64,000 nt of DNA from Methylobacterium gnaphalii (GTDB lineage: Bacteria; Pseudomonadota; Alphaproteobacteria; Rhizobiales; Beijerinckiaceae), in NCBI RefSeq assembly GCF_007992215.1, contig NZ_BJZV01000008.1, positions 62,001-126,000 of the forward strand. Direction: 5' to 3'. Of this stretch, positions 12,860 to 59,538 are shown piece after piece (within the stretch, counting starts at the first letter, position 1; each line of letters opens with the position of its first letter). The notes beneath the pieces were generated by a model. The model had not been told where the DNA came from. It saw only the letters and a list, made by a program, of their open reading frames with translations, and searched no databases. A program made the translations under genes and the position numbers.

Positions 12860-14146
12860 ATGACAAAGGCCGGTGCCAGCGGAGCGGGAACGGGCCTCCC
12901 GGGCTACCTCGCATTGTTCGCGGCGCTCTACGGCGCGTACGGGGCGCTCTCACCGTTCCTGCCGGCCTTCCTTGCCGAGCGTGGGCTCTCGCCGCAGGAC
13001 ATCACTGTTTTCCTCGCTGCTGCAACGCTGGTCCGGCTGGCCTCCGGTCCGCTCGCTGGGCGGATCGCCGATCGCACCGAGCGGACGCGTGGCGTGCTCG
13101 TGATCAGCCTCGCACTTTCGGCAGTTGCGAACCTCTCGCTGCTCGCGGGCCACGGCTTCTGGCCGCTCCTTGCCATCGGGATCGTCCAAGCGGTGTGGAC
13201 GGCGCCGCTCGCACCGCTGGCCGATGCGCTGGCACTGGCTGCCGCGCAGGGCGGCCGAGCTTTCCAGTACGGCTGGGCGCGCGCGGCCGGTTCGGCCGCC
13301 TTCATATCGGCGACCGTACTGAGCGGGTTTGCGGTCGATCTTTACGGTAGCACTGCGGGACTCGGGATCTGCGGTGCGGCCTTCGCGGCTGCGGCGGTGG
13401 TTGCGACGCGGGTCGTCACATCTTCCGGCCCACACGCCTCCATCGAGATGCCAGAATGCGGTGACGGCATCGCAGGAGAGGTGGACGGATTACCGAGCGA
13501 ACTGAGACTCTCCTTCGAGACTCGGCAAAACCTGGCACCTCAGGATGAGGGGGCGCATGGGAAGAGCTCGCAGCGAAACGGTTTCCTCGCCCTCGCTGCG
13601 ATTCCCCGTTTCCGCCGCGTGGTCTTCGTCGCTGCGCTCGTAATCGGCGCGCATGCCATGCAAGATGCCTTCGCGGTGATCGTCTGGCGCGACGCCGGCC
13701 TGTCATCCGGCATCGCTGGCCTGCTCTGGTCGGAGTCAGTCGCTGCGGAAGTCCTGGTCTTCCTGCTGATCGGCCCTTGGCTGTTCGCCAAACTCGGAGC
13801 ACCGGGCGTATTGACGATCGCGGCCCTCGCCGGAGCGCTGCGGTGGGCGGTTCAGGGCGCGACGACATGGCTGCCGGCGCTCGTCGCCATCCAGAGCCTG
13901 CACGGCCTGACATTCGCGGGTCTGCATCTCGCCTGCCTCGCTGTCATCGAACAGAGCGTGCCGGACAACCTACGCGCAACCGCTCTCAGCGTTTATGGAA
14001 CTCTCGGCATCGGGCTCGCCTCGGCGCTGTTGACTCTCGCCTCCGGCCAGCTCTTCGGAGCCGTTGGTCTCCGCGCGTTCTGGGTAATGAGCGCGCTCAG
14101 TCTAGCCGCGGTACCACTGGCCCTGTCGCTTCGAGCGGAGAAATAA
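12860..14146 (+). CDS. MFS transporter, PPP (HcaT/LacY-like) type, with a repeat-derived central loop
   Basis: This 428-residue protein has twelve hydrophobic segments in two halves. The first half resembles the HcaT/MFS_1-like subfamily (GLPGYLALFAALYGAYGAL, then FLAERGLSPQDI). The cytoplasmic loop between helices 6 and 7 (residues about 190-245) is unusually long, and residues 217-231 are encoded by a palindromic-repeat-like sequence. Transport substrate is unknown. It is the upstream neighbour of priA on the same strand, separated by 107 bases. Confidence 0.87.
   Translation: MTKAGASGAGTGLPGYLALFAALYGAYGALSPFLPAFLAERGLSPQDITVFLAAATLVRLASGPLAGRIADRTERTRGVLVISLALSAVANLSLLAGHGFWPLLAIGIVQAVWTAPLAPLADALALAAAQGGRAFQYGWARAAGSAAFISATVLSGFAVDLYGSTAGLGICGAAFAAAAVVATRVVTSSGPHASIEMPECGDGIAGEVDGLPSELRLSFETRQNLAPQDEGAHGKSSQRNGFLALAAIPRFRRVVFVAALVIGAHAMQDAFAVIVWRDAGLSSGIAGLLWSESVAAEVLVFLLIGPWLFAKLGAPGVLTIAALAGALRWAVQGATTWLPALVAIQSLHGLTFAGLHLACLAVIEQSVPDNLRATALSVYGTLGIGLASALLTLASGQLFGAVGLRAFWVMSALSLAAVPLALSLRAEK
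13509..13560 (+). repeat. Repeat family C copy inside the MFS gene
   Basis: The stretch CTCCTTCGAGACTCGG followed by GGCACCTCAGGATGAGG is a dispersed palindromic element, read in frame as part of the cytoplasmic loop (RLSFETRQNLAPQDEG). The copy in mobA at 59116-59165 is the same element in the same orientation relative to coding but in a different reading frame. Confidence 0.65.
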
Positions 14147-14253
14147 CGTAGCGCTCCTGCCTATCACGCGCGCCGGCAGTTCTTTGTCGACAGCGAACGA
14201 GTACAAATGTAGAACAAAAGGCCGCGAGCCTGCCGCTTCCAACATCAGGTCTC

Positions 14254-16623
14254 ATGCCTCAGGTCGCCGACATTCTGATCCCTTTAGCGCTCGACACCGC
14301 CTACAGCTACGCCGTGCCGACAGGCCTCACGCTGAAGGATGGCGACGTTGTGCAGATCCCGCTGGGTCCGCGTGAAACCATCGGAGTGGTCTGGGGTGTC
14401 GAGGATCGGGCCTCGGGCGGCAACCTGCGTCCGGTGAGCGGGGCCATCGAGGTTGCGCCGCTGTCCGAGCCGCTGCGGCGCCTCGTCGACTGGCTGGCGC
14501 GCTACACGCTGGCGCCGAAAGGCTCGGCACTCGCGATGGCGTTACGCCTGCCCGACGAGAACGCCCGCACAGAGATCGTGCGTATCGGCGTGCGCTCGGC
14601 CGGTAAGCCCGCCTCCAGACCCACAAAGGCCCGTGAGAAGGTGCTTGCGGTCGCCGCCGATGGCGAGGTGCGTGGCAAGAGCGCGCTGGCCAAGGAAGCG
14701 GGCGTGTCCCTGAGCGTCGTCGACGGGCTGATTGATGACGGCGCGCTGGAGACCATCGCCCTTGTGCCCGAGCCTGTGGCACTGCCGCCCGACCCGGATT
14801 TTCCAAGGCAGATGCCGCTCTCGGAGGCGCAGGCCGAGGCCGCGGCAAAGCTGATCGCGGCGTTTGACACGGTATCCCCCTTTCCCCAAATGCAGGGAGA
14901 GGACCGTGACGATCTCGCCGTTGGGGCTGTGAGTTCGAAAGGCGAGGCTGAAGACAGGCCTCAGGACGAGGCTCATCCGCGAACATTCCCTCACGATCCG
15001 CTGCTGCCTGGTTCCGCGCCCAACGGGGGAGGGGCAGCCCTCTCCTCGCAGGCGGGAAGAGGCGATTCCCACGAGGTACCGCGCGCGATTCTGCTTGAAG
15101 GCGTCACCGGCTCGGGCAAGACCGAGGTTTATTTCGAAGCCGTTGCCGAATGCGTGCGGCGCGGCCGGCAGGCCCTTGTGCTGATGCCAGAAATCGCGCT
15201 GACGGCGCAGTTCCTGGACCGGTTTGCGGCGCGGTTCGGCGTGCGGCCCGCGACTTGGCACTCGGGCATCGGCGGCCGGCGGCGGGAGAGGCTTCGCGCC
15301 GGCGTAGCAGCGGGTGAGGTGTCGGTTGTGGTCGGCGCGCGCTCGGCGCTGTTTCTACCCTTCACCGATCTCGGCCTCATCGTCGTCGATGAGGAGCACG
15401 AGAGCGCCTACAAGCAGGAGGACGGCGTCCATTATCACGCCCGTGACATGGCCGTGGTACGCGGGCGGCTCGAAGGCTGCCCGGTAGTGCTGGCCTCGGC
15501 GACGCCCTCGATCGAGTCGCGGGTGAACACCCAGCGCGGGCGTTACGGCCACATCGTCCTGCCCGAGCGCTTCGGCGGCCGGCGGCTGCCGGACATCACC
15601 GCCATCGATATGCGCCTCGACAAGCCCGAGCGCGGCCGTTTCCTGTCACCGCCGATGGTGGCGGCGGTGAAGAAGGCCGTGGCCGATGGCGAGCAAGCCC
15701 TGCTCTTCCTCAATCGGCGCGGCTATGCACCGCTGACGCTGTGCAGCGCCTGCGGCCACCGGTATCAGTGCCGGAACTGCTCCACTTGGCTCGTCGAGCA
15801 CCGCTTCCGAAGGGCGCTGGTCTGTCACCATTGCGGCTACACCGAGCGCAAGCCCGAGGCCTGTGTCGAATGCGGCACCTTCGACCATCTCACCCCGTGC
15901 GGCCCCGGCGTCGAGCGCATTGCCGAGGAGGCCGCCGAGCTGTTTCCTGACAAGCGCATCATCGTGCTGTCGAGCGATTTTCCGGGGGGCACCGAACGGC
16001 TGCGCCAGGAACTCGAAGCTGTCGCCGCTGGCGAATGCGACATCGTCATCGGCACCCAACTCGTCGCCAAAGGGCACAACTTTCCGTACCTGACACTGGT
16101 TGGGGTGCTCGACGCCGATATCGGCCTGACGTCCGGCGATCCGCGGGCCGCAGAGCGAACCTTCCAGCTCCTGCAGCAGGTGACCGGCCGTGCGGGACGC
16201 GGCGAGCGGCCAGGTCGCGCATTGGTGCAGACCTACCAGCCTGATCATCCAGTGATCGCAGCCCTGCTCTCGGGAGAAGCCGAGCGGTTTTATGAGGAGG
16301 AAATTCACGCGCGAGAGGCGGCTGGACTCCCCCCCTTCGGCCGACTGGCGGCGCTGATCGTTTCGGCAGCGCAGCGCGAGGTCGCGGAAGCGCACGGGCA
16401 GGCCATGGCCCGAGTCGCTGATCCGCCACCCGGGATCATGGTGCTCGGACCGGCCGAGGCGCCGCTGGCGCTTGTACGCGGGCGCTACCGCTTCCGCCTG
16501 CTGGTAAAAACCGACCGAGGAATCGACATCCAGAGCTATCTGCGCGATTGGCTAGCGAGGAGCCCGAAGCCGCGCGGCAACACCAAGGTCACGATCGACG
16601 TGGATCCGCAGAGCTTCCTTTAG
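14254..16623 (+). CDS. priA: Primosomal protein N' (replication restart helicase)
   Basis: PriA reloads the replisome at stalled forks. Its 789 residues carry an N-terminal DNA-binding and winged-helix region (1-185), Walker A GVTGSGKT at residues 283-290, the Walker B box VDEEHE, eight cysteines in four CxxC pairs (two zinc sites) in the CSACGHRYQCRNC region, and the C-terminal GRAGRGERPG. Residues about 206-276 are a low-complexity insert encoded by a palindromic repeat, just before the Walker A strand; without it the length would match ordinary PriA. It is likely monocistronic. Confidence 0.97.
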   Translation: MPQVADILIPLALDTAYSYAVPTGLTLKDGDVVQIPLGPRETIGVVWGVEDRASGGNLRPVSGAIEVAPLSEPLRRLVDWLARYTLAPKGSALAMALRLPDENARTEIVRIGVRSAGKPASRPTKAREKVLAVAADGEVRGKSALAKEAGVSLSVVDGLIDDGALETIALVPEPVALPPDPDFPRQMPLSEAQAEAAAKLIAAFDTVSPFPQMQGEDRDDLAVGAVSSKGEAEDRPQDEAHPRTFPHDPLLPGSAPNGGGAALSSQAGRGDSHEVPRAILLEGVTGSGKTEVYFEAVAECVRRGRQALVLMPEIALTAQFLDRFAARFGVRPATWHSGIGGRRRERLRAGVAAGEVSVVVGARSALFLPFTDLGLIVVDEEHESAYKQEDGVHYHARDMAVVRGRLEGCPVVLASATPSIESRVNTQRGRYGHIVLPERFGGRRLPDITAIDMRLDKPERGRFLSPPMVAAVKKAVADGEQALLFLNRRGYAPLTLCSACGHRYQCRNCSTWLVEHRFRRALVCHHCGYTERKPEACVECGTFDHLTPCGPGVERIAEEAAELFPDKRIIVLSSDFPGGTERLRQELEAVAAGECDIVIGTQLVAKGHNFPYLTLVGVLDADIGLTSGDPRAAERTFQLLQQVTGRAGRGERPGRALVQTYQPDHPVIAALLSGEAERFYEEEIHAREAAGLPPFGRLAALIVSAAQREVAEAHGQAMARVADPPPGIMVLGPAEAPLALVRGRYRFRLLVKTDRGIDIQSYLRDWLARSPKPRGNTKVTIDVDPQSFL
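14873..15065. repeat. Long palindromic repeat inserted in frame in priA
   Basis: About 190 bases bounded by inverted arms: the left arm CCCCCTTTCCCC plus GGGAGAGG, and the right arm CCCTCTCC plus GGGAAGAGG. The internal sequence has no ATPase-family similarity, and translates to a Gly/Ser/Asp/Pro-rich linker. It keeps the frame open and falls between conserved PriA domains. Confidence 0.7.
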
Positions 16624-16681
16624 GATTGGCAGCGTTCCTGCCTTCACACGCAGCCTGCGTATCGCAAGGAGCTCGAAGACC

Positions 16682-17041
16682 GTGCTGACCTACGAGAAGA
16701 AGCCCAAATCCAGTTTTGCTGAGATCGTCGTCGACGGGAAAATCACCGATGACGAGATGAACAAAGTCATGGCGGCGATGAAGGCCGACCTCGATAGTGG
16801 CACCAAGCTCAAGCTCTTGGAGGACATTCGCACCTTCGAGGGCATGGAGCCGGCGGCCTTCTTTAAGGACCCGCGCTTCGGCATCTCGATGATGAAGGGC
16901 GTTAGCCACGTCGCGCTGGTAACCGATGCGCAGTGGCTGAAGATGGTCGCCGAGACCTTCAGCTTCGTCTCACCGACCCAGATCAAAGTCTTCGAGCGCG
17001 CCAAGATCGATGAGGCGCGCGCTTGGCTTAACGCCGCCTGA
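16682..17041 (+). CDS. STAS/SpoIIAA-like protein
   Basis: This 119-residue cytosolic protein matches the SpoIIAA-like (STAS-fold) family seen in many proteobacteria. It begins MLTYEKKPKSSFAEIVVDGK, continues with ITDDEMNKVMAAMKADL and ends in VSPTQIKVFERAKIDEARAWL. These proteins lack the phosphorylation serine context of true anti-anti-sigma factors, and their role is unknown. It is downstream of priA by 58 bases and ends at a strong hairpin. Confidence 0.82.
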   Translation: MLTYEKKPKSSFAEIVVDGKITDDEMNKVMAAMKADLDSGTKLKLLEDIRTFEGMEPAAFFKDPRFGISMMKGVSHVALVTDAQWLKMVAETFSFVSPTQIKVFERAKIDEARAWLNAA

Positions 17042-17064
17042 TCCTGCCGTCAGTCTCGAGAGAG

Positions 17065-17089
17065 CGACGAGCCGGCTTGCGGCTCGTCG
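17065..17089. terminator. Bidirectional stem-loop between convergent genes
   Basis: Perfect 10-base arms CGACGAGCCG and CGGCTCGTCG with a 5-base loop lie between the stops at 17041 (plus) and 17099 (minus). There is only a short TT after it, so intrinsic termination is plausible but not proven. Confidence 0.6.
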
Positions 17090-17098
17090 TTCGGCACG

Positions 17099-17500
17099 TC
17101 AGTCGGCCTGTGCGGTACGGGTGGTCTGGCGGCGTGCCGTCCAGCGGCCGGAGCAGAGCGAAGAGACCTTCCAGGTGCCCGAGCCGTTCTGGACCTGCAG
17201 ATGGCCCGAAGCCGAGCCGCTAGCCGCGCTTGTCGCGACGTTGAGGCCGACAGAACCGTCCTTGCCGACGCGACCCGTGACAGATGCGCCGCTGCTCGCT
17301 GCCTTCGAAATCGGGCGGACCTGCCCGTCGACTACCGAGAGCGAGTAGCTGTAGCGTGCGTCGCAGAAGGCGCCGTTCTCCGTCACCAGCTCGACCGACC
17401 AGTTGCCATCATAGTTGGCGCCATCACGCGCGCTTGCCGACAGAGCAAAATGCGAGCTGAGGCCAGCGGCAAGGGCGAGCGTGAGAGCGAGCTTCGACAT
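17099..17500 (-). CDS. Small exported hypothetical protein
   Basis: This 133-residue protein has a clear signal peptide (hydrophobic residues 4-20, cleavage after SASA near residue 24). The mature part has YDGNWSVELVTENGAFC and two cysteines (near 47 and 117) that could form a disulfide. It is rich in Gly/Ser with alternating hydrophobics, suggesting a small beta-sandwich. Similar heavily GC-coded exported proteins are common in Methylobacteriaceae, but I cannot assign a function. Confidence 0.75.
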   Translation of the reverse strand: MSKLALTLALAAGLSSHFALSASARDGANYDGNWSVELVTENGAFCDARYSYSLSVVDGQVRPISKAASSGASVTGRVGKDGSVGLNVATSAASGSASGHLQVQNGSGTWKVSSLCSGRWTARRQTTRTAQAD

Positions 17501-17948
17501 GCGTCATCCATCCGAGAGGTCGGGCGACCCGAAGCAACGTTCTGCCTCGAACCAGTGAGTATTGAGGATGAGCGCAACATACCGAATGAAACGGCGAGAT
17601 TGTGACGCGCAGAGGCTGAGTGATAGTAAAGCGGATCGATACGGCCAAGTTTCCGAAGAGCATCTCGCGGCGACTAGACCTGCCCTTGGGATCCGGTCAT
17701 TGATTTAGGACTTATTCAAAAATCTGCGTCGTTACCGCGGATAAACGTCCGGTCACCTGATATTCTACAAACTTACTCAGGCATTGGACTACGCTGGTGT
17801 CCAGAGGACGCAGCGATCGACCACTAAGAGGTGAAAAAAAAGCCCGCGCCGGGCGGGCCGGGCGGGTTTGGAAAGTCCACACGCTCCTTGGAGGAAGACG
17901 CATAAGATCAACGGTCGGGCACTGGCCGGTAATCCATCTGCCCAACTC
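17501..17948. other. Gene-free stretch between exported protein and rsmA
   Basis: Region 17580-17800 has lower GC than its flanks and would carry the promoter of the minus-strand exported protein at 17500. The only clear element is the terminator of the rsmA operon at 17834-17869. No coding sequence is supported. Confidence 0.6.
17834..17869 (-). terminator. Intrinsic terminator of the lpt-pdxA-rsmA operon
   Basis: Read on the minus strand, an AACCCGC arm is followed after a GC-rich loop by GCGGGC and a run of eight T. It lies 80 bases after the rsmA stop, at the expected end of the minus-strand cluster. Confidence 0.8.
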
Positions 17949-18803
17949 TCACACCGAGCCTTCGAGGATACGCGCCAGGTCGACGAAACCTTCGATGGAA
18001 ACTTCTTCCGCACGGGCTGTCTCCACCAAGCCCGAGGCCGTCAGCAGGCCGATCGGATCAGGCGTCGCTGCCTTCAGGCTCTGGCGCAACATCTTCCGGC
18101 GCTGGCCGAACGCAGCGCGGGTCACCGTCTCCAGCGCCTTCACCGAGCAGGGAAGCGGCTTCGCACGCGGTACGATCGACACCACGCTGGAGGTGACCTT
18201 CGGCGGCGGTACGAACGCAGAGGCCGCGACGTCGAACAGGATCGAGGCTTGCGTTCGCCAGCCGCAGAGCACGCCGAGTCGCCCGTAATTCGCTCGGTCA
18301 TTGGGATCGGCGACGATGCGCTCGGCAACCTCCCGCTGGAACATCAGCACGGCGCGGTCCCACCAGGGCGGCCATTCGGCCTCTGTAAGCCAGTCGATGA
18401 GCAGAGCGGTGCCGACATTGTAGGGAAGGTTCGCGACGATACGCGCCGGGCCAGTTCCGACCAGCGGCCGAGGGTCGAAGCCGACAGCATCCGCGTCGAC
18501 GACCTGGAGCCGGCCCGGATAATAGGCTGCGATCTCTGCCAGAGCGGGCAAGGCGCGTGGATCGCGCTCGATCGCGATGACCTTGCCGGCGCCGGCCGCA
18601 AGGAGCGCCCGCGTCAAGCCGCCCGGGCCCGGACCGACCTCGACCACGGTGACCCCGTCGAGCGGCCCGGCGGCGCGGGCGATGCGGCCGGTCAGGTTGA
18701 GGTCGAACAGAAAGTTCTGGCCGAGCGCCTTCTTCGGCTCCAGGCCGTGCCGCTTTACCACCTCGCGCAGAGGCGGCAGGCCGTCGGATGCGGGTTCGCT
18801 CAC
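17949..18803 (-). CDS. rsmA: 16S rRNA (A1518/A1519) dimethyltransferase
   Basis: RsmA/KsgA dimethylates two adjacent adenosines near the 3' end of 16S rRNA. It has 284 residues. Substrate and SAM motifs are in place: [11 protein letters not shown] near residue 23, [16 protein letters not shown] near 56, and NLPYN near 124. It starts with GTG, and the start overlaps the pdxA stop (GTGA), so it is translationally coupled as the last gene of the lpt-pdxA-rsmA operon. Confidence 0.97.
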
Positions 18804-19813
18804 GGCCGCGCTGCGAGACGATGGGCGAGGCGGAGCGCCGCGATCAGGCTGTCGGGGCGTGCGATGCCCTGGCCGGCGATGTCGAAGGCCGTTCCATGGT
18901 CCGGCGACGTTCGCACGAAGGGCAGTCCGAGGGTCACGTTGACACCGTCGTCGAAGGCCAGCGTCTTGATCGGGATAAGAGCCTGATCGTGGGTCGGCGT
19001 CAGCGCGACGTCGTAGGCTGCGCGAGCACGTTCGTGGAAGAGGGTATCGGCCGGCAGCGGTCCGCGGATGTCGATGCCCTCCGAGCGCAGCCTGGCCACT
19101 GCCGGGGCGAGCACGTCGCGATCCTCGCTACCTATCGTACCGGCCTCACCCGCATGCGGATTCAGGCCGGCGAGCACGAGGCGCGGGGTCGCCAGCCCGA
19201 AGCGCTCGCGCAGGCCGTCATGGACGACCCGCGCGGTGCGCTCGACCAGATCCTGCGTCAGCAAATCCGGTACCTGGCGCAGGGCGACGTGGATCGTGAC
19301 CGGCACGACGGAGAGCGTCTCGCTCCATAGCAGCATCACCGGCAGCGGGATATCGCGGCCCGGCTCAGCGGCGAGAGCAGCCAGGAATTCGGTGTGACCG
19401 GGATGGGCGAAGCCCGTCTGATTCAGCACGAATTTCGCGATCGGATTGGTCACGATGGCCGCCGCGCGACCTCTGCGGACCAGTTCGACGGCAGCGGTGA
19501 TCGACTCGATGATCGCACCGGCATTGGCTGGATCCGGCAGGCCGGGCGTTGCCTTCACCCGAGCGCCGCTCGGGAGCGGCCAGACGGGTAGGGCGCGCGG
19601 AAATACCTCAACGGCGTATTCCGGGTCGACCTCCGCCACTGGCACGAGCAGGCCGAGGCGATGCGCGGCGGCTTCCAGAAAGCTCGGGTCGCCGATCAGT
19701 AGGAAGGGCGGAATGTCCCGCTCGACCCTAGCGCGCCAGGCGGCGAGGGCGATCTCGGGACCGATCCCGGCCGGATCGCCGAGGGTGAGCGCCAGCGCCA
19801 TGTTGTCGATCAT
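18800..19813 (-). CDS. pdxA: 4-hydroxythreonine-4-phosphate dehydrogenase
   Basis: PdxA is an NAD-dependent step of the DXP-dependent pyridoxal-phosphate pathway. It has 337 residues, with the N-terminal [15 protein letters not shown] and the metal-ligand regions GHTEFLA and [14 protein letters not shown] second in-frame ATG four codons later (19801) is an alternative start. It sits between lptD and rsmA, a known alphaproteobacterial and gammaproteobacterial arrangement. In many relatives surA lies between lptD and pdxA; here there is no room for it. Confidence 0.97.
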
Positions 19814-19843
19814 GATCCGGCGACGTTTACAGCACTCTCGCGG

Positions 19844-22474: not shown

Positions 22475-22493
22475 CTCGAACCTGAAGGCGGGC

Positions 22494-23582: not shown

Positions 23583-23590
23583 CGCGGCGC

Positions 23591-45205: not shown

Positions 45206-45214
45206 TTTCGAGGT

Positions 45215-47292: not shown

Positions 47293-47347
47293 GGCCTTCT
47301 CCGCTGCCGTCATGAGCCCCGCGACATCAGGCAGTTCGAGCGCGGAT

Positions 47348-47370: not shown

Positions 47371-47379
47371 CCGCAGGCG

Positions 47380-48713: not shown

Positions 48714-48913
48714 GATCCGCCCCTCCCTGCACCGTGCCTGCTAGTGCACGGTTGTAGGGGTTAGCCGCGGCGCATGAAGAAAAGATCGCTGCCCAACGCC
48801 GTACCGCGCGAATGGCCTCCTGATCGCGCAGGGCGGTGAGCAAAGGATTTGCCACACCTCGCCAATTGTTGGGATCGCAGCGGGGATTGACCGCGCGCCC
48901 GTCTCGGCCCACA

Positions 48914-49024
48914 TCAGGGGTGTTCCAGGGAGATCCCCGACAAGGGGCTGAGACACCGCTATCGCCATCGGGCAGCGCGGAAATCCTTCGAACCTGATCC
49001 GGTTCATACCGGCGTAGGGATTGG
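48914..49024 (+). promoter_or_regulatory. Thiamine pyrophosphate (TPP) riboswitch
   Basis: The conserved THI-element cores are present in order: a 5' GGGGTGTTCC, GGGGCTGAGA, and the 3' core ACCTGATCCGG followed by ATACCGGCGTAGGGA. It lies 80 bases before the GTG start of thiO on the same strand and should turn off thiO-S-G-E when TPP is high. Whether control is transcriptional or translational cannot be told, but the leader lacks an obvious terminator. Confidence 0.92.
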
Positions 49025-49103
49025 ACCGCGGGCGTTCCCAGCACGCTCACTCAGCTTCACGAGAAGCGCGGCATCGATCCTTACGGGCAACCGTGGAGGC
49101 CTC

Positions 49104-50339: not shown

Positions 50340-50545
50340 GGCTGATCGTCAACGGCGAGCCCTGGGACCATGAGGCGGCCGATGTCGCCGCGCTCTTCGC
50401 CATTGAGGCGGAGGAGCGCGAACTGCCGTCCGAGGGCATCGCCATCGCGCTGAACGGGCGCGTCGTCCGCAGGAAGGATTGGGCCGGCACCCCATTGAGC
50501 GAGGGCGATCGCATCGAGATCGTCCGCGCCATGCAGGGCGGCTGA
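50336..50545 (+). CDS. thiS: Sulfur-carrier protein ThiS
   Basis: This 69-residue ubiquitin-fold protein carries the thiocarboxylate sulfur to ThiG. It begins MRLIVNGEPWDHEA and ends with the essential Gly-Gly. The ATG overlaps the thiO stop. It is too small to be seen except by frame; the length matches the family. Confidence 0.95.
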   Translation: MRLIVNGEPWDHEAADVAALFAIEAEERELPSEGIAIALNGRVVRRKDWAGTPLSEGDRIEIVRAMQGG

Positions 50546-50569
50546 ACGAGACACACAGGGCCTTTCGCC

Positions 50570-51373
50570 ATGACCCATCACGACACTACGCTCACCGCGC
50601 AAACCGGCGACGACCTCCTTGAGATCGCCGGCGTCAAACTCTCCTCGCGCCTGTTCATCGGCACGGCCGGCTATCCGACCCAGGGCATCATGGCCGAGTC
50701 GGTGCGCGCCTCGGGCGCCGAGGTCGTCACCGCCTCGATCCGCCGCGTCTCGCTGCAGGGCCACGGCTCGGACACGTTTCAGAAGCTCAAGGGCAAGCGC
50801 TTTCTGCCCAACACCGCCGGCTGCGAGACCGCCCGCGACGCGATCATGACCGCCGAGCTCGCCCGCGAGGCGCTCGACACCACCTGGATCAAGGTCGAGG
50901 TGATCGGTGACCGCGAGACGCTCTATCCGGACGTCACCGAGCTGATGGACGCCTGCCGCCACCTGATCGACGACGGCTTCACCGTGCTGCCCTATTGCAA
51001 CGACGATCCCGTCATCTGCGAGCGCCTCGCCGATATGGGTTGCGCCGCGGTGATGCCGATGGGCTCGCTGATCGGCTCCGGCATGGGTGTCGCCAACCCG
51101 GCCAATATCGAGCTGATCTGCCGCCGGGCGAAGGTGCCGGTGATCGTCGATGCCGGCATCGGCACGGCCTCGGATGCCGTCATCGCCATGGAGCTCGGCG
51201 CCGCAGCCTGCCTGATCAACACGGCCGTCGCCAAGGCCGACGACCCGGTCCGCATGGCCGCCGCCATGCGACACGCGGTCGAGGCCGGCCGTCTCGCCCA
51301 TCTGGCAGGACGCATCCCGCGCCGGGGCCGCGCCGAACCGTCCAGCCCGCAGCTCGGCCTCGTCGGCTCGTGA
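50570..51373 (+). CDS. thiG: Thiazole synthase ThiG
   Basis: This 267-residue TIM-barrel enzyme builds the thiazole phosphate from DXP, dehydroglycine and ThiS thiocarboxylate. The catalytic lysine is in [11 protein letters not shown] near residue 107; [26 protein letters not shown] and [15 protein letters not shown] complete the site. The stop overlaps the thiE start (GTGA). Confidence 0.97.
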
Positions 51374-52134
51374 TCCCGTCGCCGCTTCTCGTCGTCACCG
51401 ATCGGCATGGCGCAGGCCGGCCGCTGACGGAGACGGTGAGCGCGGTGTTGGAGGGGGGCGCCCGCTGGATCTGGTTTCGTGACAAGGATCTGGAACCGGA
51501 GGCGCGACGCGCCCTGGCCACTGCGCTATTGCGGCTGGTCCGCAAAGTGGGAGGCCGCCTGACGATCGGCGGTGACGTCGGCCTTGCCGCCGAAATCGGC
51601 GCGGATGGCGTGCACCTGAGCGGTTCGGTTTTTGCCGGCTCCGTCATCGCGAGCGAAGCGAAACTGTCCAGCGAGCCGCAGCGCTTAGCCGACGCGGCTG
51701 GATTGCTTCGCTTTGCTCGCAATGATGGGGCTGGACCTCAGGCGACCAAGCAGCCGGGAACGGGCGTCGCTGACATTGTCGTCCAGGCCCGCCAGCGCCT
51801 GAATCCCGGCGCACTCGTCGGCCTCTCCGCCCACAGCCTCGCCGACATCCGGACGGCAGTGGAGGCCGGAGCCGACTACGTCACTCTCAGCCCGATCTTT
51901 GCGACGGCGAGCAAGCCCGGCTACGGCCCAAGCCTCGGCCTCGCCGCTTTGCGCGAAGCGGCAGGTCTCGGCCTTCCGGTCATCGCCCTCGGCGGCATCG
52001 GAGCGGAACAGGCTCGGCTCTGCCGCGAGGCCGGCGCGGCTGGAGTCGCGGTGATGGGCGGAGTGATGCGCGCGGATGATCCGATTGCCGAGACGCGCCT
52101 GCTCATCGCCGTAACATCAAGTCCCTCATCCTGA
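51370..52134 (+). CDS. thiE: Thiamine-phosphate synthase ThiE with a repeat-derived insert
   Basis: ThiE joins the pyrimidine and thiazole halves. It is 254 residues long, against about 210 in the family. The start is a GTG overlapping thiG. The barrel motifs are VHLSGS near residue 81, VGLSAHS near 150, [18 protein letters not shown] and VIALGGIGA. Residues about 91-120 (from [13 protein letters not shown] to LLRFARND) are encoded by an 89-base palindromic repeat inserted in frame, in the loop after the third barrel strand. Confidence 0.93.
51641..51729. repeat. Palindromic repeat (family A) inside thiE
   Basis: The left arm CCGTCATCGCGAGCGAAGCG (51641-51660) is the imperfect inverse of the right arm GATTGCTTCGCTTTGCTCGC plus AATGATGG. 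Translated it gives the VIASEAK...LLRFARND peptide that I recognise as a common translated alphaproteobacterial repeat. Compare 6981-7073 and 52171-52200. Confidence 0.85.
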
Positions 52135-52170
52135 CACGCGGCGGAGCGGTTCGGATGTTCGCTGATCTCG

Positions 52171-52200
52171 CCCACCGTCATCGCGAGCGCAGCGAAGCTG
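52171..52200. repeat. Half copy of palindromic repeat (family A)
   Basis: ACCGTCATCGCGAGCGCAGC plus GAAGCTGTG matches the left arm of the thiE copy. No right arm follows, so it is truncated. It lies 36 bases after the thiE stop. Confidence 0.7.
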
Positions 52201-52234
52201 TGACCGTGGGGTCTCGAAACGCCGTGCAGCAGCG

Positions 52235-52262
52235 CGGACGCGGCGGTCTTGCGCCGCGTCCG
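52235..52262. terminator. Stem-loop between convergent thiE and hydrolase
   Basis: Perfect 11-base arms CGGACGCGGCG and CGCCGCGTCCG with a 6-base loop lie before the minus-strand stop at 52281. No T-run follows on either strand; termination is inferred from position. Confidence 0.5.
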
Positions 52263-52280
52263 GCCACACATCGTATCGGG

Positions 52281-53315
52281 TTACCGCTTCGCAATTCCCT
52301 CGATCAGGGCCCTGTTGAAGGTCTCGGGGTCGGACATCTGCGGCGCGTGGCCGAGTTCCGGGAACTCGACCAGCCGCGATCCAGGAATGGCCTTGGCCGT
52401 CGCCTTGCCGAGTTCGGGGTAGTGGCCGAGCGTCGGCTTCACGTCGGCCGGCGCCAAGTCCTTGCCGATCGCCGTGATGTCCTTCTGGCCGATCATCAGC
52501 AGCGTCGGCACCGTGATCTGGGGCAGGCGGTAGACCACGGGCTGGGTCATGATCATGTCGTAGAGCAGCGCCGAATTCCAGGCGACCTGCTCCTTGCCAG
52601 GCCCGCGATACAGGCCGGCAAGCATCTGCACCCAGGGCTCGTAACGCTCCTCCCAGTGGCCGGCGTAGTAGGTCGCCTTCTCGTAGTTGCGGATCGAGTC
52701 CGCCGAGGTCTTCAGGTCGCGCTCGAGCCATTGCGCCAGCGAGATCGGCGGCACCCCCTTCGCGCTCCAATCCTCGAGGCCGATTGGGTTGACCAGCACG
52801 AGCTGTGCAGTCTCCTTCGGGTAGAGCAGGGCGTAATGGGCAGCGAGCATGCCGCCGGTCGAGTGACCGATCACGATCGGGTTCTGAACGCCGAGCTTCC
52901 CGAGTAGGGCGTGGGTATTCTCGGCGAGCTGACGGAAGCTGAACTGGTAGGCGGCCGGCTTGCTCGACTTGCAGAATCCGATCTGGTCAGGCGCGACGAC
53001 GCGGTAGCCGGCGCCGGACAGGGCGCGGATCTGGCTTTCCCAGGTCGCGGCGCAGAAATTCTTGCCGTGGAGCAGAACCGCAGTCTGCCCATTGGGGTGG
53101 TCGGGGCGGACATCGAGATAGGCCATCTGCAGCGGCTGGCGCTGGGACGTGAACTCGTAGCGCTCGACCGGGAACGGGTAGTCGAAGCCCTGGAGTTCCG
53201 GGCCGTATGCGGCCGTCGCCGGATCGCTCGACGCGGCCTGAACCGCGCCGCCGCCGAGGACAAGGTTGATCGCGAGGGCGATCGACAGCCCGAGGTTTCG
53301 TTTCGATGCCAGCAT
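52281..53315 (-). CDS. Exported alpha/beta-hydrolase
   Basis: This 344-residue protein has a signal peptide (LGLSIALAINLVLGGG, cleavage after VQAA). Oxyanion loop VLLHGKNFCAATWES, nucleophile IGHSTGGMLAAHY (Ser near residue 147), acidic GQKDITA and histidine LGHAPQM give a full catalytic triad. It resembles lipase/haloalkane-dehalogenase-like hydrolases, but the substrate is unknown. It is divergent from guaA. Confidence 0.88.
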   Translation of the reverse strand: MLASKRNLGLSIALAINLVLGGGAVQAASSDPATAAYGPELQGFDYPFPVERYEFTSQRQPLQMAYLDVRPDHPNGQTAVLLHGKNFCAATWESQIRALSGAGYRVVAPDQIGFCKSSKPAAYQFSFRQLAENTHALLGKLGVQNPIVIGHSTGGMLAAHYALLYPKETAQLVLVNPIGLEDWSAKGVPPISLAQWLERDLKTSADSIRNYEKATYYAGHWEERYEPWVQMLAGLYRGPGKEQVAWNSALLYDMIMTQPVVYRLPQITVPTLLMIGQKDITAIGKDLAPADVKPTLGHYPELGKATAKAIPGSRLVEFPELGHAPQMSDPETFNRALIEGIAKR

Positions 53316-53591
53316 GGTGCGCGTCTCGATTTCGTCTCTGTGTCGGAGAGGCCGGAACGGCTTTCTGACGACGGCTGGCCTGTACGCCCTTCAGCGCCGA
53401 GTCAGCCAGGGCTCGGGCGCCGACCGCGTTCACCTTTTCGAGAACGAGGGCCGTGCGGGCATGGGCTGAGCTGAGGCCCGCAGCCGGGAGGTGCGCTGTC
53501 ACACTCCGGGTCGCATGCGGGCCTTGCGGCCCAACGCGTTGCGCGGCCGGGAGCCGTCGTCTAACTCGGGCGACGACACGCCCGAGGCCGC

Positions 53592-55163
53592 ATGACTCCC
53601 CTGCTCGACACCTCCCAGCACGACAAGATCCTGATCGTCGATTTCGGCTCCCAGGTGACGCAGCTCATCGCCCGCCGCGTGCGCGAAGAGGGCGTGTATT
53701 GCGAGATCGTGCCCTTCACGAAAGCCGACGCTGCTTTCGACGAGCATCGGCCCAAGGGCGTCATCCTCTCCGGCGGCCCGGAATCGGTGACCTCGGACCT
53801 CTCGCCCCGCGCCCCGCAAAAGATTTTCGACGCCGGCATCCCCGTGCTCGGCATCTGCTATGGCCAGCAGACCATGGCGGCGCAGCTCGGTGGCGAGGTC
53901 GAGGGTGGCCACCATGCCGAGTTCGGCCGGGCCGAGGTCGAGATTCTCGCCGACTCGCCGCTCTTCCACGGCGTCTGGCATGTCGGCGAGAAATATCCGG
54001 TTTGGATGAGCCACGGCGACCGCGTGACCAAGCTGCCCGACGGCTTCGTCACCATTGCGCTGTCGAAGAACGCACCCTTCGCTGCCGTCGCCGACGAGTC
54101 GCGCCGCTATTACGCGGTGCAATTCCACCCGGAGGTGCACCACACCCCGCACGGCGCCCTACTGATCCGCAACTTCGTGCGCGACATCGCCGGCTGCTCT
54201 GGCGACTGGACCATGGGTGCGTACCGCGAGGAGGCGATCGCCAAGATCCGCGAGCAGGTCGGCACCGAGAAGGTGATCTGCGGCCTGTCCGGCGGCGTCG
54301 ATTCCTCGGTGGCGGCCGTGCTGATCCACGAGGCGATCGGCGACCAGCTCACCTGCGTCTTCGTCGATCACGGCCTGATGCGGCTCGGCGAGGGCGACGA
54401 GGTCGTCCGGCTGTTCCGCGACCACTACAACATCCCGCTCGTGCACGTTCAGGCGCAGGACCTGTTCATCAGCGCACTCGAAGGCGTCGACGACCCCGAG
54501 GTGAAGCGCAAGACGATCGGCCGGCTGTTCATCGACGTGTTCGAGGAAGAGGCCAAGAAGATCGGCGGCGCGGCCTTCCTCGCGCAGGGCACGCTCTACC
54601 CGGACGTGATCGAGAGCGTCTCGTTCTCCGGCGGCCCCTCGGTGACGATCAAGAGCCACCACAATGTCGGTGGCCTGCCTGAGCGCATGAACATGAAGCT
54701 CGTCGAGCCTCTGCGCGAGCTGTTCAAGGACGAGGTGCGCCTGCTGGGCAAGGAGCTTGGCCTGCCCGAGAGCTTCGTCGGCCGCCATCCCTTCCCAGGC
54801 CCGGGCCTCGCCATCCGCTGCCCCGGCGTGATCACCCGCGAGAAGCTCGAGGCCCTGCGCAAGGCCGACGCGATCTACCTCGACGAGATCCGCCAGGCCG
54901 GGCTCTACGACACGATCTGGCAGGCCTTCGCGGTGATCCTGCCGGTGAAGACGGTGGGCGTGATGGGCGACGGCCGCACCTACGACCACGTCTGCGCGCT
55001 GCGCGCTGTCACCTCGATCGACGGCATGACCGCGGATTTCTACCCCTTCGACATGGCCTTCCTCGGCCGCGTGGCGACGCGCATCATCAACGAGGTGAAG
55101 GGCATCAACCGGGTGACCTACGATATTACGTCGAAGCCGCCTGGGACGATCGAGTGGGAGTGA
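53592..55163 (+). CDS. guaA: GMP synthase (glutamine-hydrolysing)
   Basis: This 523-residue enzyme converts XMP to GMP. The glutaminase domain has the nucleophile in [13 protein letters not shown] near residue 93 and HPEVHHT. The ATP-pyrophosphatase P-loop [13 protein letters not shown] is near residue 235. The C-terminal dimerisation domain ends KPPGTIEWE. It is monocistronic, 276 bases from the hydrolase start, with a GC-rich upstream region and no visible riboswitch. Confidence 0.98.
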
Positions 55164-55173
55164 GCGGAGGGCG

Positions 55174-55601
55174 CTAAGGCTCGACCTTCAAAGCCGGCAC
55201 ACCGACGAAAGGACCTGCCTCGGCCAGCTTTTGATCGAGCGTGCAGATCGTGGCGCCATGCTCCGACGCGACTGCGAGGTGGAGTGCATCGCCGGCGCGA
55301 GGCCCGAGGGTGTGCTGATCGACGAATTTCGCCGCTGCTCTGAATTGGGCTCCGTACACCGCCAGCACCGTCAAACTTTCGGCGATCAGCTTGTTGAATG
55401 CCGACAGGGCTGCGGCCCGCTGGTCCAAGGTAATATGGCCCGTCCTCAGCTTGATCGACAAGGCGGAGGACGTCTCCGTGATCGTCCAGTCGCTGACGGC
55501 GAGTTGCTCCGAGGCTCGCTCAGACAGCCATTCGTGGACACGTAGCGTCATCGCCTCATTCGACAGTGCGGCCACGATCAGCGACGTGTCGAGGTAGAGC
55601 A

Positions 55602-55602
<1 letters not shown>
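55174..55602 (-). CDS. PIN-domain toxin (VapC type)
   Basis: This 142-residue RNase has the PIN acidic residues Asp5 in [11 protein letters not shown], Glu near 44 in [12 protein letters not shown], and Asp near 103 and 121 in DALHLAVA and CTLDQKLAE. The start overlaps the antitoxin stop (ATGA), the usual antitoxin-first arrangement. It is convergent with guaA, only 10 bases from its stop. Confidence 0.88.
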
Positions 55603-56003
<401 letters not shown>

Positions 56004-56067
56004 CTATCCGCATGCTGACAAAACGGACGCGATTGCGCCCCTGAAGCTCCGCCTACGAAAGTCTCCG

Positions 56068-56310
56068 ATGATCAAGGCCCGCATCGTCGTCACCCTGAAG
56101 ACCGGCGTCCTGGATCCGCAGGGCAAGGCCATCGAGGCGGCGCTCCAATCCTTCGGCATCGGGGATGTCGGCAGTGTCCGCCAGGGCAAGGTCTTCGATG
56201 TCGAGATCGAAGCCAGCGACCGGGCCCAGGCCGAGACCACGCTGAAGGCTGCGTGCGAAAAACTCCTGGCGAACACCGTCATCGAAAACTACGCGATCGA
56301 GATCGCCTGA
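56068..56310 (+). CDS. purS: Phosphoribosylformylglycinamidine synthase subunit PurS
   Basis: This 80-residue small subunit links PurQ and PurL. Family motifs are KARIVVTLKTGVLDPQGKA and GVGDVG-like SFGIGDVGSVRQGKVF. The stop overlaps the purQ start (TGATG). purL is not in the window. Confidence 0.96.
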   Translation: MIKARIVVTLKTGVLDPQGKAIEAALQSFGIGDVGSVRQGKVFDVEIEASDRAQAETTLKAACEKLLANTVIENYAIEIA

Positions 56311-56990
56311 TGCGCGCGGCCATCGTCGTTTTCCCCGGCTCCAACCGCGACGCCGACGTAGCGCGGGCCCTCACGCTGGCCGGCGCCGAAGTCGTGAAGG
56401 TCTGGCATGCCGATACCGAGCTGCCTGCCGGCACCGATCTCGCCGTGCTGCCCGGCGGCTTCTCCTATGGGGACTACCTGCGCTGTGGCGCCATTGCCGG
56501 CCGTGCGGCGGCCATGGATGCCGTGCGGGCGCATGCGGCGCGCGGCGGCCTGGTGCTCGGCATCTGTAACGGCTTCCAGATCCTGTGCGAGTCGGGCCTG
56601 CTGCCCGGCGTGCTGATGCGCAACATCAACCGCCGCTTCATCTGCCACCGCCAGATGCTGCGCGTGGAGCGGGCCGATACGCGCTTCACCACGGCCTATA
56701 AGAAGGGCCAGGTCATCGACGTCTGCGTGGCGCATGGGGAGGGCAACTACTTCGCCGACCCCGAGACCATCGCGCGGCTCGAAGGCGATGGCCGCGTGGC
56801 CTTCCGCTACGCGAACGCGGCCGGTGAGCTGACCGAGGATGCGAACCGCAACGGCTCGCTGAATTCCATCGCCGGGATCTACTCGGAAAAACTCAATGTG
56901 CTCGGGATGATGCCCCATCCTGAGAACTTCGTCGAAGGCCTGATCGGTGGCGTCGACGGTCGCGGGCTGTTCGAGAGCTTGGCGGCTTAG
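56310..56990 (+). CDS. purQ: Phosphoribosylformylglycinamidine synthase subunit PurQ
   Basis: This 226-residue glutaminase feeds ammonia to PurL. The nucleophile cysteine is in VLGICNGFQILCESGLLPG near residue 87, with HPEN and the His/Glu pair in MMPHPENFVEGLIGG. The start was set by the overlap with purS. It ends 15 bases before a palindromic repeat. Confidence 0.97.
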   Translation: MRAAIVVFPGSNRDADVARALTLAGAEVVKVWHADTELPAGTDLAVLPGGFSYGDYLRCGAIAGRAAAMDAVRAHAARGGLVLGICNGFQILCESGLLPGVLMRNINRRFICHRQMLRVERADTRFTTAYKKGQVIDVCVAHGEGNYFADPETIARLEGDGRVAFRYANAAGELTEDANRNGSLNSIAGIYSEKLNVLGMMPHPENFVEGLIGGVDGRGLFESLAA

Positions 56991-57005
56991 GCCGGTTCGT
57001 CTTCG

Positions 57006-57042
57006 GCATTCCGGGTTCCGCTTCGTGGCCCGGGAATGACGG
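57006..57042. repeat. Palindromic repeat (family B), intergenic
   Basis: GCATTCCGGGTTCC and GGCCCGGGAATGACGG are near-inverse arms around a 7-base loop, located between the convergent purQ and apt. It is related to the GTCATTCCGGG copy at 61686-61731. It may also serve as a transcription stop. Confidence 0.75.
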
Positions 57043-57059
57043 CTGGCAGGGGCCGGTTC

Positions 57060-57605
57060 TCAGTGCCCCTCGAATTCCACCAATGTCCGAACGGGAACGC
57101 CGAGGTCGCGCAGCTTCTGGGCGCCACCGATCTCGGGCAGGTCGATCACGAAACAGGCGGCTACGACCTCCGCGCCGAGCTGGCGCAGCAGGTTCACAGC
57201 CGCCGTCGCGGTGCCGCCTGTGGCGATCAGGTCGTCGACGAGCAGCACGCGGTCGCCCGGTCTGATCGCGTCGACATGGATCTCGATGTGATCGGTGCCG
57301 TATTCGAGCGCATATTCCAGTGACACGGTCTTGTGAGGCAGCTTGCCCTTCTTGCGGATCGGCACGAAGCCCGACGAGAGCTGGTGCGCCACCGCGCCGC
57401 CGAGGATGAAGCCGCGCGCCTCGATACCCGCGACCTGATCCACCTGACCGCCCGCGAAAGGATGCACCAGGGAATCCACGGCACGCCGGAAGGCGCGCGG
57501 ATCACTCAGCAGGGTCGTGATATCGCGGAAGATGATGCCGGGTTTCGGGTAGTCCGGAATCGACCGGATCGAGTCCTTGAGAGCGCTGTGCTTGCGGGAG
57601 TCCAT
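57060..57605 (-). CDS. apt: Adenine phosphoribosyltransferase
   Basis: This 181-residue salvage enzyme makes AMP from adenine and PRPP. The PRPP motif [18 protein letters not shown] is near residue 122. [19 protein letters not shown] near the start is typical. It is single, convergent with purQ. Confidence 0.97.
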
Positions 57606-57761
57606 GCGGCGGGCCTTGTTATCCTAGTCCGTGGCGGAGCTTAGAGCAGAAGCCGTGCCGTGGAGCCAGAGGTGGCCTGGCACGATGGGGCTAGCACCCC
57701 GCCAGCGTCATTCGGGGGTTCTCGCTGCGGGAGCCCCGGCGAGTTGGCGTGACGTGCCCGA

Positions 57762-58571
57762 TCAGGCCGCGTTCGCCTTGCGCAGGATCGCGATCAGTTC
57801 ACCATGCAACGCCTCGTTGCCGGCCGCCACTGACTTGGCGGCAGTCTTGGCCGCCAGGGGTTCTGCCCCGCCATCGGCGTTGGTGACGAAGCCGCCGGCT
57901 TCGCGCACGAGGATGATGCCGGCCGCGATGTCCCAGGACTGGATGTCCCGCTCCCAGTAGAAATCGTTGCGGCCGCAGGCGACGTAGGCGAGGTCGAGGG
58001 CGGCAGAGCCGAAGCGTCGAGCGCCGCCGGTGACCTGCATCACGGCCGCGACCTCCTTGAGCAGTCGAGGCTGATCGCCGCGGCCGAGATAGGGCGACCC
58101 GTAGGCGACGAGGGCGTCGGCGAGCTCCTGCCGGCCGGAGACGCGCAGGCGCCGGTTGTTGAGGTAGGCGCCCTTGCCGCGCTCGGCGACGAACAGCTCG
58201 TCCTTGATCGGGTCGTAGATCACGCCGGCGACGATCATGCCATCGCGCTCCAGCCCGACCGAGATCGCGAAATGCGGAATGCCGTGCAGGAAGTTCGTAG
58301 TGCCGTCGAGCGGGTCGATGTGCCAGGTGTGGCTTTTGTCGGTTCCCTCGATCACCCCGTTCTCTTCGAGCACCAGCCCGTAGCCGGGCCGCGCCTTCAT
58401 CAGAGCCTCGCGCAGCACGTCCTCGGCCTTGCGGTCGGCGGCGGAGACGAAGTTGCCGGGCCCCTTACGCGAGACCTGCAGGTTCTCGACCTCGCCGAAA
58501 TCGCGCTTGAGGCCGCGGGCGGCCTTTCGGACGGCGTCGACCATGACGGTCATGAGGGGAGAGTTGATCAT
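57762..58571 (-). CDS. suhB: Inositol-1-monophosphatase family protein
   Basis: This 269-residue metal-dependent phosphatase has the family motifs WHIDPLDGTTNFLHGIP near residue 83 and SWDIAAGIILVREAGG near residue 212, together with VLEENGV for metal ligands. It could act on inositol phosphate or a related sugar phosphate; the symbol is by closest class and not certain. It is followed by 190 bases with no gene on either strand before mobA. Confidence 0.88.
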   Translation of the reverse strand: MINSPLMTVMVDAVRKAARGLKRDFGEVENLQVSRKGPGNFVSAADRKAEDVLREALMKARPGYGLVLEENGVIEGTDKSHTWHIDPLDGTTNFLHGIPHFAISVGLERDGMIVAGVIYDPIKDELFVAERGKGAYLNNRRLRVSGRQELADALVAYGSPYLGRGDQPRLLKEVAAVMQVTGGARRFGSAALDLAYVACGRNDFYWERDIQSWDIAAGIILVREAGGFVTNADGGAEPLAAKTAAKSVAAGNEALHGELIAILRKANAA

Positions 58572-58758
58572 GCGGAATCCGTGTCCGGCCCGATACCGGC
58601 GTGCTGATGGCGATCGGGGGTTGTCGGCGCGTTCTATACGCGTTGCAGCCGAGCGCCATAGCCATGAGCGAATTTCTGCTGGCGCGTCAGTGCATCCGTG
58701 CTGTCACGACGCAAGACCAGGTGAGCCAAATCACGGTCGGGCCCGCCTTGCTGGAACG

Positions 58759-59538
58759 CTATCGCAGCAGGGCAGCCTTTCCAGGATCGGCCAGGACCGC
58801 TTCTGCTGCCGCAAGATCGGCCGGTTCGTTGATGTTGAGGAATGGGTCGAACGGTGCGGCGGGCCAGGGCACCACAACCGCGCCGTGCCGCGCGATGAAA
58901 GCACCGACGCGGCGCTCGTCGCGCTCTACCAAAGCGGCGCGCAGGTCGTGCCGCAGCGCGACGGGCCAGAGCGCAACCGTGTAGTGCTGCTTCTCCGAGG
59001 CCGCGAGCGCGATCCGTGGATCGCCTGCGTCCAGAGCTGCGTGCAGGCGCTCGACGAGATCGCGCGGGATAAAGGGCGCATCGCCCGACACGCTGACGAC
59101 GTGGCTCATCCCACACTCTTCCTCAGCCCTGGATGCCCGCATTAGCGGGCCTCGAAGGCGGGCCTCGGATGTGTCCGTGATCCCTGGAGACCTCCTGGGA
59201 GGCTCAGCTTCACTTCGCAGCTCGGGATGAGCGTATGTGTTGGAAGTGCGATGGCGGTCATGGTGATCCCCCGCGAAATCGAGCGCGGCGAGGATGCCGG
59301 CGAGCGGGCCCGGATTGCCGGGGATGCCGTCGGGCAGGACGGGGCCATCGAACCCGGCAAAGCGCCCTGGATCGCCGTTGGCGCTGAGCACGAGCCCGGC
59401 GCCGCATTGCGGCTTCAGGCGCTCGACGACGCGGTCGAGCAGGGTCCGGCCGTTGAGGCGCAACAATGTCTTGTCCCCGCCGCCCATGCGGCGGGCGAGG
59501 CCGCCGGCCAGGATAAGCCCGAGGGTCGGCGGCGCCAT
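58759..59538 (-). CDS. mobA: Molybdenum cofactor guanylyltransferase MobA with a repeat-derived insert
   Basis: MobA joins GMP to molybdopterin. The 259 residues exceed the usual 200 or so. Motifs are LILAGGLARRMGGGDKTLL at the N-terminus, GNPGPLAGILAAL near residue 75, then VSVSGDAPFIP near residue 149. Residues about 91-141 between these are encoded by a palindromic-repeat block (59116-59268) and lack family similarity. FLNINEPADL is near the C-terminus. The start MAPPTLG was preferred over an upstream ATG that overlaps mrp. Confidence 0.92.
   Translation of the reverse strand: MAPPTLGLILAGGLARRMGGGDKTLLRLNGRTLLDRVVERLKPQCGAGLVLSANGDPGRFAGFDGPVLPDGIPGNPGPLAGILAALDFAGDHHDRHRTSNTYAHPELRSEAEPPRRSPGITDTSEARLRGPLMRASRAEEECGMSHVVSVSGDAPFIPRDLVERLHAALDAGDPRIALAASEKQHYTVALWPVALRHDLRAALVERDERRVGAFIARHGAVVVPWPAAPFDPFLNINEPADLAAAEAVLADPGKAALLR
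59116..59268. repeat. Palindromic repeat block (family C) in frame inside mobA
   Basis: CCTCAGCCCTGGATGCCCGC and GCGGGCCTCGAAGG (59121-59158) match, on the opposite strand, the repeat in the MFS gene. A second unit with CCTCCTGGGAGGC follows. The block encodes the extra loop (TSEARLRGPLMRASRAEEE region) in a different frame from the MFS copy. Confidence 0.65.

Follow-up and report, generated by a model that had tools for sequence, protein, structure and literature searches.

A nested palindromic repeat of Methylobacterium found in frame within conserved genes

We describe family A, a dispersed palindromic repeat of Methylobacterium with copies lying in frame inside conserved protein genes. 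It is a real case of insertion resembling that of the Rickettsia palindromic elements (RPEs) in a free-living genus; this kind of insertion is already known, and we found no description of the family itself. The original prediction had noticed related blocks in two genes of one genome, an observation that we confirmed, and had read them as RPE-like insertions whose peptides are not selected and whose sequence evolved to be open. RPE-like insertion was borne out, as was the lack of peptide selection in the inserts of the MFS transporter gene and priA, while evolved open frames were not: the open frames are probably explained by a survival filter on tolerated passengers rather than by the design of the element.

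Host genes in the window

The window, that is, the whole stretch of 64,000 nucleotides analyzed here, covers bases 62001 to 126000 of contig 8 of a 4.78-Mb genome. Its MFS transporter gene (12860 to 14146, plus strand) matches MFS_1_like (PF12832, E = 9.8e-47), with the family A repeat between the two halves. The gene adjoins priA (14254 to 16623, plus strand; TIGR00595), an arrangement found in 44 of the 80 priA loci compared, and the top three relatives by priA match, Methylobacterium sp. C25, M. haplocladii, and M. brachythecii, also gave the best MFS matches. The thiamine phosphate synthase gene thiE (51370 to 52134, plus strand, start estimated) matches PF02581 in two stretches (E = 3.9e-41) and scores 111.5 bits against TIGR00693, under the cutoff of 145.1. 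The molybdenum cofactor guanylyltransferase gene mobA (58759 to 59802, minus strand) scores 181 bits against TIGR02665, over the cutoff, and its real start is probably near 59550.

At gathering thresholds, the sole Rfam match in the whole window was a TPP riboswitch (RF00059, 60.6 bits; 48918 to 49038, plus strand), about 2.3 kb upstream of thiE. Two mutually similar palindromes (CATTCCGGG...CCCGGAATGACG), also present in other loci compared, lie at 57004 to 57041 and 61690 to 61727.

Architecture and distribution of family A

Related copies elsewhere in the same genome show a nested palindrome spanning about 140 bp, with outer arms CCTCATCCTGAGG and CCTCAGGATGAGG, inner arms GCCTCGAAGGAGG and CCTCCTTCGAGGC, and a weaker CCCACCC-like outer flank some 13 to 16 bases past each end. 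The end motif CCTCATCCTGAGG contains a TGA, which closes one of the three phases at each end on each strand. From 11 aligned copies of this genome, none of them from the window, we built a covariance model with 35 pairs over 117 model positions.

In the genome of the window, this model gave 45 matches at E <= 1, corresponding to 25 distinct places, mobA and MFS included, the three shortest of which (38 to 54 bases) may be chance. Across the genus, 46 of 59 genomes (this one included) had a match at E <= 0.001, and the three-contig assembly G008 had at least 150 matches at at least 85 distinct places. Four records of a plasmid collection matched as well, all from Methylobacterium and with 75 places in total; the best place in each had no annotated feature beneath it. 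Within the window, a further weak match lies at 59897 to 60012 (E = 0.043), and several others occur in loci L053 to L090, of which L053 turned out to be a type C repeat. Scanning the window for CCTCAGGATGAGG with three mismatches was uninformative (25 found versus 24 expected).

In four loci from several species (L380, L381, L382, and L377), a partial family A copy lies just 5' of the same gene, whose protein probably starts with MDDHKPI, and may affect its 5' region.

Among the papers listed for Methylobacterium, in a library without most subscription papers, we found none that describes family A, judging from titles and the opening lines of abstracts. In the portions consulted, PMC2680597 mentions other repeats, and PMC5082802 deals with Bradyrhizobium REPs of different sequence.

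Family A copies in the MFS and mobA genes

The mobA insert, in frame and about 48 codons long (59110 to 59256, minus strand), is a degenerate full-length family A palindrome that the model matches at 59118 to 59235. The MFS copy (13434 to 13553, plus strand) is a degenerate palindrome, also matched in frame, with a clear right half (CTCCTTCGAGACTC...CACCTCAGGATGAGG) and an eroded left half. In the genome-wide search the mobA copy scored E = 3.8e-5 and the MFS copy E = 0.12; because this weak match is backed by the orthologous insert of M. haplocladii (L030), which scored E = 5e-7, its assignment to family A is safe. Both blocks match a model built from copies outside the window and belong to one repeat family, as predicted, and the mobA match together with the better-preserved M. 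haplocladii copy rules out a chance resemblance.

Both copies are in frame, and their codons are indeed one base apart in register (CTC-TCC-TTC-GAG-ACT in MFS and GCC-CGC-CTT-CGA-GGC in mobA). From this, the original prediction derived two reading frames and entirely different peptides. The inner part does differ between mobA and MFS, but both element ends share one phase, and the statement on the peptides was too strong: the mobA insert has the ends AHPE...RAEE and the M. haplocladii MFS insert GHPD...APHDE, in the same phase as PHPE...APQDE. The phase of the inner stem shifts with the unequal length of the spacers that separate it from the outer stem, hence the two-frame effect. We also considered opposite orientation as a cause; the DNA scores of the two strands were too close to fix the orientation of the mobA and window MFS copies, and our claim is restricted to the difference in inner spacing.

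The mobA insert is skipped in all 23 other genomes of the genus with a mobA match (G014 gave no match), and none of the 23 other rows of the mobA alignment, six of which come from outside the genus, contains it. With the thiE insert, which belongs to another family (family B) and is absent from 24 of 24 relatives, this supports the predicted RPE-like insertion in frame into conserved genes.

The full-length MFS element is found in the window and in M. haplocladii. By eye, M. brachythecii (L031) has kept both element ends and lost the middle, and M. sp. C25 (L029) has only the right part; the frames of all these copies, including the shortened ones, are open throughout. Compared in this way, the loci read as a single old insertion followed by in-frame erosion, and the MFS and mobA copies are likely to be two old family A insertions.

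Inserts in thiE, priA, and cobN

At least four host genes had been predicted to carry in-frame elements. MFS, mobA, thiE, and priA do carry them, but a single family in all four was ruled out, since thiE and priA hold inserts that match different repeats, making three repeat types. The family B insert of thiE (CATCGCGAGCGAAGCGAA...TTGCTTCGCTTTGCTCGCAATGA) lies in frame at 51631 to 51756 (plus strand, approximate limits), and 24 of 24 genomes of the genus match the protein as pieces flanking residues 90 to 129 or so. It is 76% identical over 95 nucleotides to the cobN insert of G032, and a half copy of the repeat is found elsewhere in the window (7040 to 7072).

The priA insert with the type C repeat (CCCTCTCC...GGCGGGAAGAGG; 14890 to 15075, plus strand), in frame in the linker ahead of the helicase domain, is common to the window and M. 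haplocladii (L030) and absent from L029 and L031; the repeat has matches elsewhere in L070, L054, and L447. M. gossipiicola (L035) has a different insert in the same PriA linker, a segment that thus holds different repeat inserts in different species.

A loop of CobN was compared as well. cobN matches occur in 59 genomes, some of them being paralogues only, and the stretch bounded by its GAFRF-like and FLQPDRG anchors could be extracted from 19 of 30 loci, the other 11 not fitting the pattern. Family A occupies this loop in five loci and family B, by its peptide signature, in two (the genome of the window and G032), while in several other loops the peptides, by eye, look like CCCTCTCC-type repeats and G004 (L442) has an apparent remnant. 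For the G033 copy (L266), an inversion relative to G008 was favored (192 versus 158). One and the same CobN loop (L422 to L426, L432, L433, and other loci) hence carries different palindrome families by species, once flipped.

Open frames in family A

We scored the open frames of each copy, out of six, against 200 dinucleotide shuffles per copy; such shuffles do not preserve the palindrome, and their strands are less correlated than those of the element. The 23 copies of the window's own genome (two window copies left out, three short ones kept) had 2.61 open frames versus 3.23 expected, and 2 of 200 shuffles went as low. At the 28 loci with best copies from other genomes, the figures were 1.96 versus 3.24, and the 30 best copies of G008, including three later placed in genes, had 1.97 versus 2.85, with 0 of 200 shuffles as low in either case. 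Hence, instead of having more open frames than base composition predicts, as expected of an element evolved for them, family A had fewer, and more stops, in all three sets. This deficit and the TGA in the end motif indicate that family A is not built open. Stops in all frames, named beforehand as evidence against the original prediction if frequent outside genes, characterized only a minority of copies (3 of 30 in G008, 0 of 23 in the own genome, and 0 of 28 in the others).

Length and reading phase of copies in genes

To place copies in genes, we tested the third-position GC of the two regions that flank the copy in every open frame across it, with a threshold of 0.2. The flank test was passed by 3 of 85 G008 places (at least 85 being listed), 0 of 23 in the own genome, and 0 of 28 in the others. 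The three G008 copies lie in the genes for urea carboxylase, birA, and cobN, conserved genes in which TIGR02712, TIGR00121, and NF008973, respectively, match on both sides of the insert. Further family A copies in cobN were found in G003, G033, G034, and G046. These counts are lower bounds because the MFS copy of the window, with a left score of 0.14, would fall below the threshold of 0.2, and they leave out L151, L152, L155, L160, L312, L315, L385, and L473, which passed a looser test (0.15). Own-genome copies outside the window were judged by the flank test at 0.2 and, for six spanning frames, also by Pfam.

Several candidates were rejected. Six genomes have open frames of 663 to 677 amino acids that suggested a common in-gene copy; L380, L381, L382, and L377 carry the element immediately 5' of a probable start, and L332 and L383 have a negative coding-frame score downstream. 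Among the long open frames that span a copy, those of L121, L136, and L138 match Pfam on just one flank of it.

Both end motifs were measurable in 119 of the 133 family A copies without a confirmed place in a gene. Their end-to-end spacing was 0 modulo 3 in 17, 1 in 34, and 2 in 68, so that frame-preserving spacings fell below one third and 102 of 119 were frame breaking. All nine measurable in-gene copies had a spacing of 0 modulo 3, a result that is partly built in because in-gene status requires a kept frame, and four of the nine (cobN) came from queries favoring the frame-preserving class. The window MFS copy, having lost its left motif, was not measurable; the right end of the mobA copy is degenerate (four mismatches), with two placements that both give 0 modulo 3. 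The pool of family A copies is poor in frame-preserving lengths, and the in-gene copies are drawn from that minority.

The preserved ends of all in-gene copies, mobA and MFS included, read in a single phase, PHPE...PQDE, with the end variants PHPD in birA and AHPE and RAEE in mobA. The inner stem reads GLEGG...SFEA and variants in MFS, urea carboxylase, birA, and four of five cobN copies, and PPRR or PRRR...RLRG or LLRG in mobA and the G033 cobN copy. In the other copies of fitting length, two stop-free phases were open equally often (27 and 30 of 34 readings). One is the PHPE...PQDE phase, with few cysteines and little charge, and the other a basic, cysteine-rich LILRCR...LRMR phase: peptides of left phase f1 had a mean net charge of +3.7 and 1.17 cysteines, and those of f0 a charge of +0.8 and 0.26 cysteines. 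Searches with second-phase peptides gave no homology-supported in-gene copy among the matches listed, the loci and the long open frames being those tested. In G013, one place (L267, L295, L352, and L459) did pass the flank test when read in the second phase; its opposite strand reads into what we take to be the start of MetH, and we set the place aside as probably antisense.

Substitutions in the inserts and predicted structure

In a comparison of the window with M. haplocladii, the 43 codons of the MFS insert showed 0.40, 0.37, and 0.44 changes per site at the first, second, and third codon positions, versus 0.19, 0.16, and 0.50 in the N-terminal flank and 0.19, 0.09, and 0.48 in the other flank. 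Likewise, the priA insert (60 codons) had 0.23, 0.45, and 0.40, and its flanks 0.14, 0.12, and 0.42 and, on the C-terminal side, 0.05, 0.02, and 0.36. Residue identity within the inserts is 37% (MFS) and 45% (priA), which makes the alignment behind these codon counts uncertain. Neither insert shows the third-position excess of its flanks, so their peptides do not look kept, in agreement with the predicted absence of peptide selection. For the cobN insert of G008 (L197) and G003 (L257), third-position changes amounted to 0.04, against 0.17 and 0.16 for the two flanks; a young insertion, gene conversion, or a constraint at the DNA level may account for this.

In a structural model of MobA (24 sequences, mean pLDDT 78), residues 100 to 146 form the only inner segment with a pLDDT below 50; the insert lies between a helix (82 to 102) and a strand (150 to 155), and most ten-residue blocks after position 150 exceed 90. 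The model thus predicts that the mobA insert is a low-confidence loop within a mostly confident fold. With their open frames and coding-type flanks, the inserts are probably translated as extra floppy loops.

Explanations of the open frames

In the explanation that we propose, the roughly 140-bp palindrome of family A is REP/MITE-like and would spread in Methylobacterium, chiefly between genes, landing in one only rarely. Such a copy would survive only if its length keeps the frame, if its entry phase avoids the TGA of each end, and if it sits in a surface loop or linker. It would then be translated as a disordered and nearly neutral insert whose amino acids are not conserved, and would decay by substitution and in-frame deletion. 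The G008/G003 cobN insert, with its few third-position changes, fits this scheme less well, and some in-gene copies may be conserved as DNA or refreshed by gene conversion.

It is very improbable that the elements instead evolved readable open frames in order to spread into genes. This would agree with the in-frame family A copies in at least five genes (MFS, mobA, urea carboxylase, birA, and cobN) and with the two phases per strand that are usually open at fitting length (27 and 30 of 34 readings), but it conflicts with the deficit of open frames relative to shuffles in all three sets, with the 102 of 119 copies not placed in genes that lack a frame-preserving spacing, and with the failure of 82 of 85 G008 places in the in-gene test, although that test misses some real cases. 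There is equally little reason to think that the inserts were taken into use by their host proteins: the family A inserts of cobN have open frames in five genomes, with few synonymous changes in the G008/G003 pair, whereas the MFS and priA inserts lack a third-position excess, the same CobN loop holds different families and lengths, and sister species carry apparent deletion remnants.

Survival could also depend on the peptide, the PHPE...PQDE phase being tolerated and the equally stop-free LILRCR...LRMR phase not, in which case the peptide would matter at insertion and not later. We regard this refinement as possible though somewhat doubtful. All confirmed in-gene copies are in the first phase even though the two phases are equally open in the other right-length copies (27 and 30 of 34), f1 peptides are more basic and richer in cysteine than f0 peptides (+3.7 and 1.17 versus +0.8 and 0.26), and no homology-supported second-phase copy was found in a gene among the matches listed and tested. 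Frame played no part in the discovery of five gene loci, MFS and mobA through the original prediction and urea carboxylase, birA, and cobN through the covariance model, and their agreement has a chance of about 0.03 under a 1:1 expectation. However, the independent events are few, a preferred phase of insertion could yield an identical pattern, the second-phase null covers the loci and long open frames tested among the matches listed, and the G013 place passed the second-phase flank test before being set aside as probably antisense. Based on five gene loci, the first-phase preference is suggestive.

Relation to known repeats

According to passages of PMC2229807, Rickettsia RPEs are palindromes of 105 to 146 bp that occur between genes and in frame within conserved protein genes. 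Family A shares the RPE-like size range (about 100 to 150 bp), the palindrome (35 pairs), the many dispersed copies (25 places in its own genome, 46 of 59 genomes), and the in-frame copies in conserved genes, absent from orthologues in the case of mobA. We liken it to RPEs by its behavior, with probably the same mode of action. Unlike RPEs, family A has few of its examined copies in genes and is enriched in stops.

In the passages of PMC3733652 consulted, the CGTC-tagged REPs include RPE-4 and RPE-6 of R. conorii and occur mostly in alphaproteobacteria; their tag is often TGTC or CCTC, the stems start with AT and have 8 to 9 bp with a loop of 4 to 5 nucleotides (other loops in some genera) and a CCA tail, head-to-head dimers predominate, and intragenic copies are listed, those of the GTAG and CGTC classes being already known. 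The word Methylobacterium is absent from the main text of that paper. Similar to these REPs, family A begins with CCTCAT at its CCTCATCCTGAGG ends, i.e., a tag followed by AT, and consists of two inverted units, and family B reads CGTCATCGCGAGC in thiE. Nevertheless, the stems of family A are longer and imperfect and its loops or spacers larger, as judged by eye in the 11-copy alignment.

The enterobacterial RU-1/ERIC, RU-2, and RU-3 elements are described in part of PMC2759123 as small repeats with open frames fused in frame to genes, none of them within conserved domains of superfamily proteins. Family A is likewise a small repeat with open frames joined in frame to genes, but its hosts are unrelated to those of the RU elements and it inserts inside conserved enzymes (MobA, BirA, and CobN). 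As for the Neisseria Correia/NEMIS elements, excerpts of PMC2229807 distinguish a 155-bp form with stops in all frames, found almost exclusively between genes, from a 107-bp form with open frames, found within genes. The same kind of filter seems to apply to family A, with length variants within one family in place of two element forms.

Implications

With family A, a free-living, GC-rich genus joins the groups that have palindromic repeats inside conserved genes, and two easily confused ideas are separated, namely, an element designed for translation and an element that passes a survival filter. We tentatively suggest, at somewhat less than even confidence, that a small set of permissive loops (in CobN and the PriA linker) are natural acceptors, repeatedly hit by unrelated palindrome families in either orientation, with family A always entering through the phase of the hydrophilic peptide. 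If so, the genus would represent a natural screen for insertion tolerance, in which length class, phase, and peptide chemistry jointly decide survival and neutral drift of the peptide follows. The CobN loop, with its several repeat families in many species, offers a comparative test bed for the tolerance of proteins to insertions of 30 to 50 residues.
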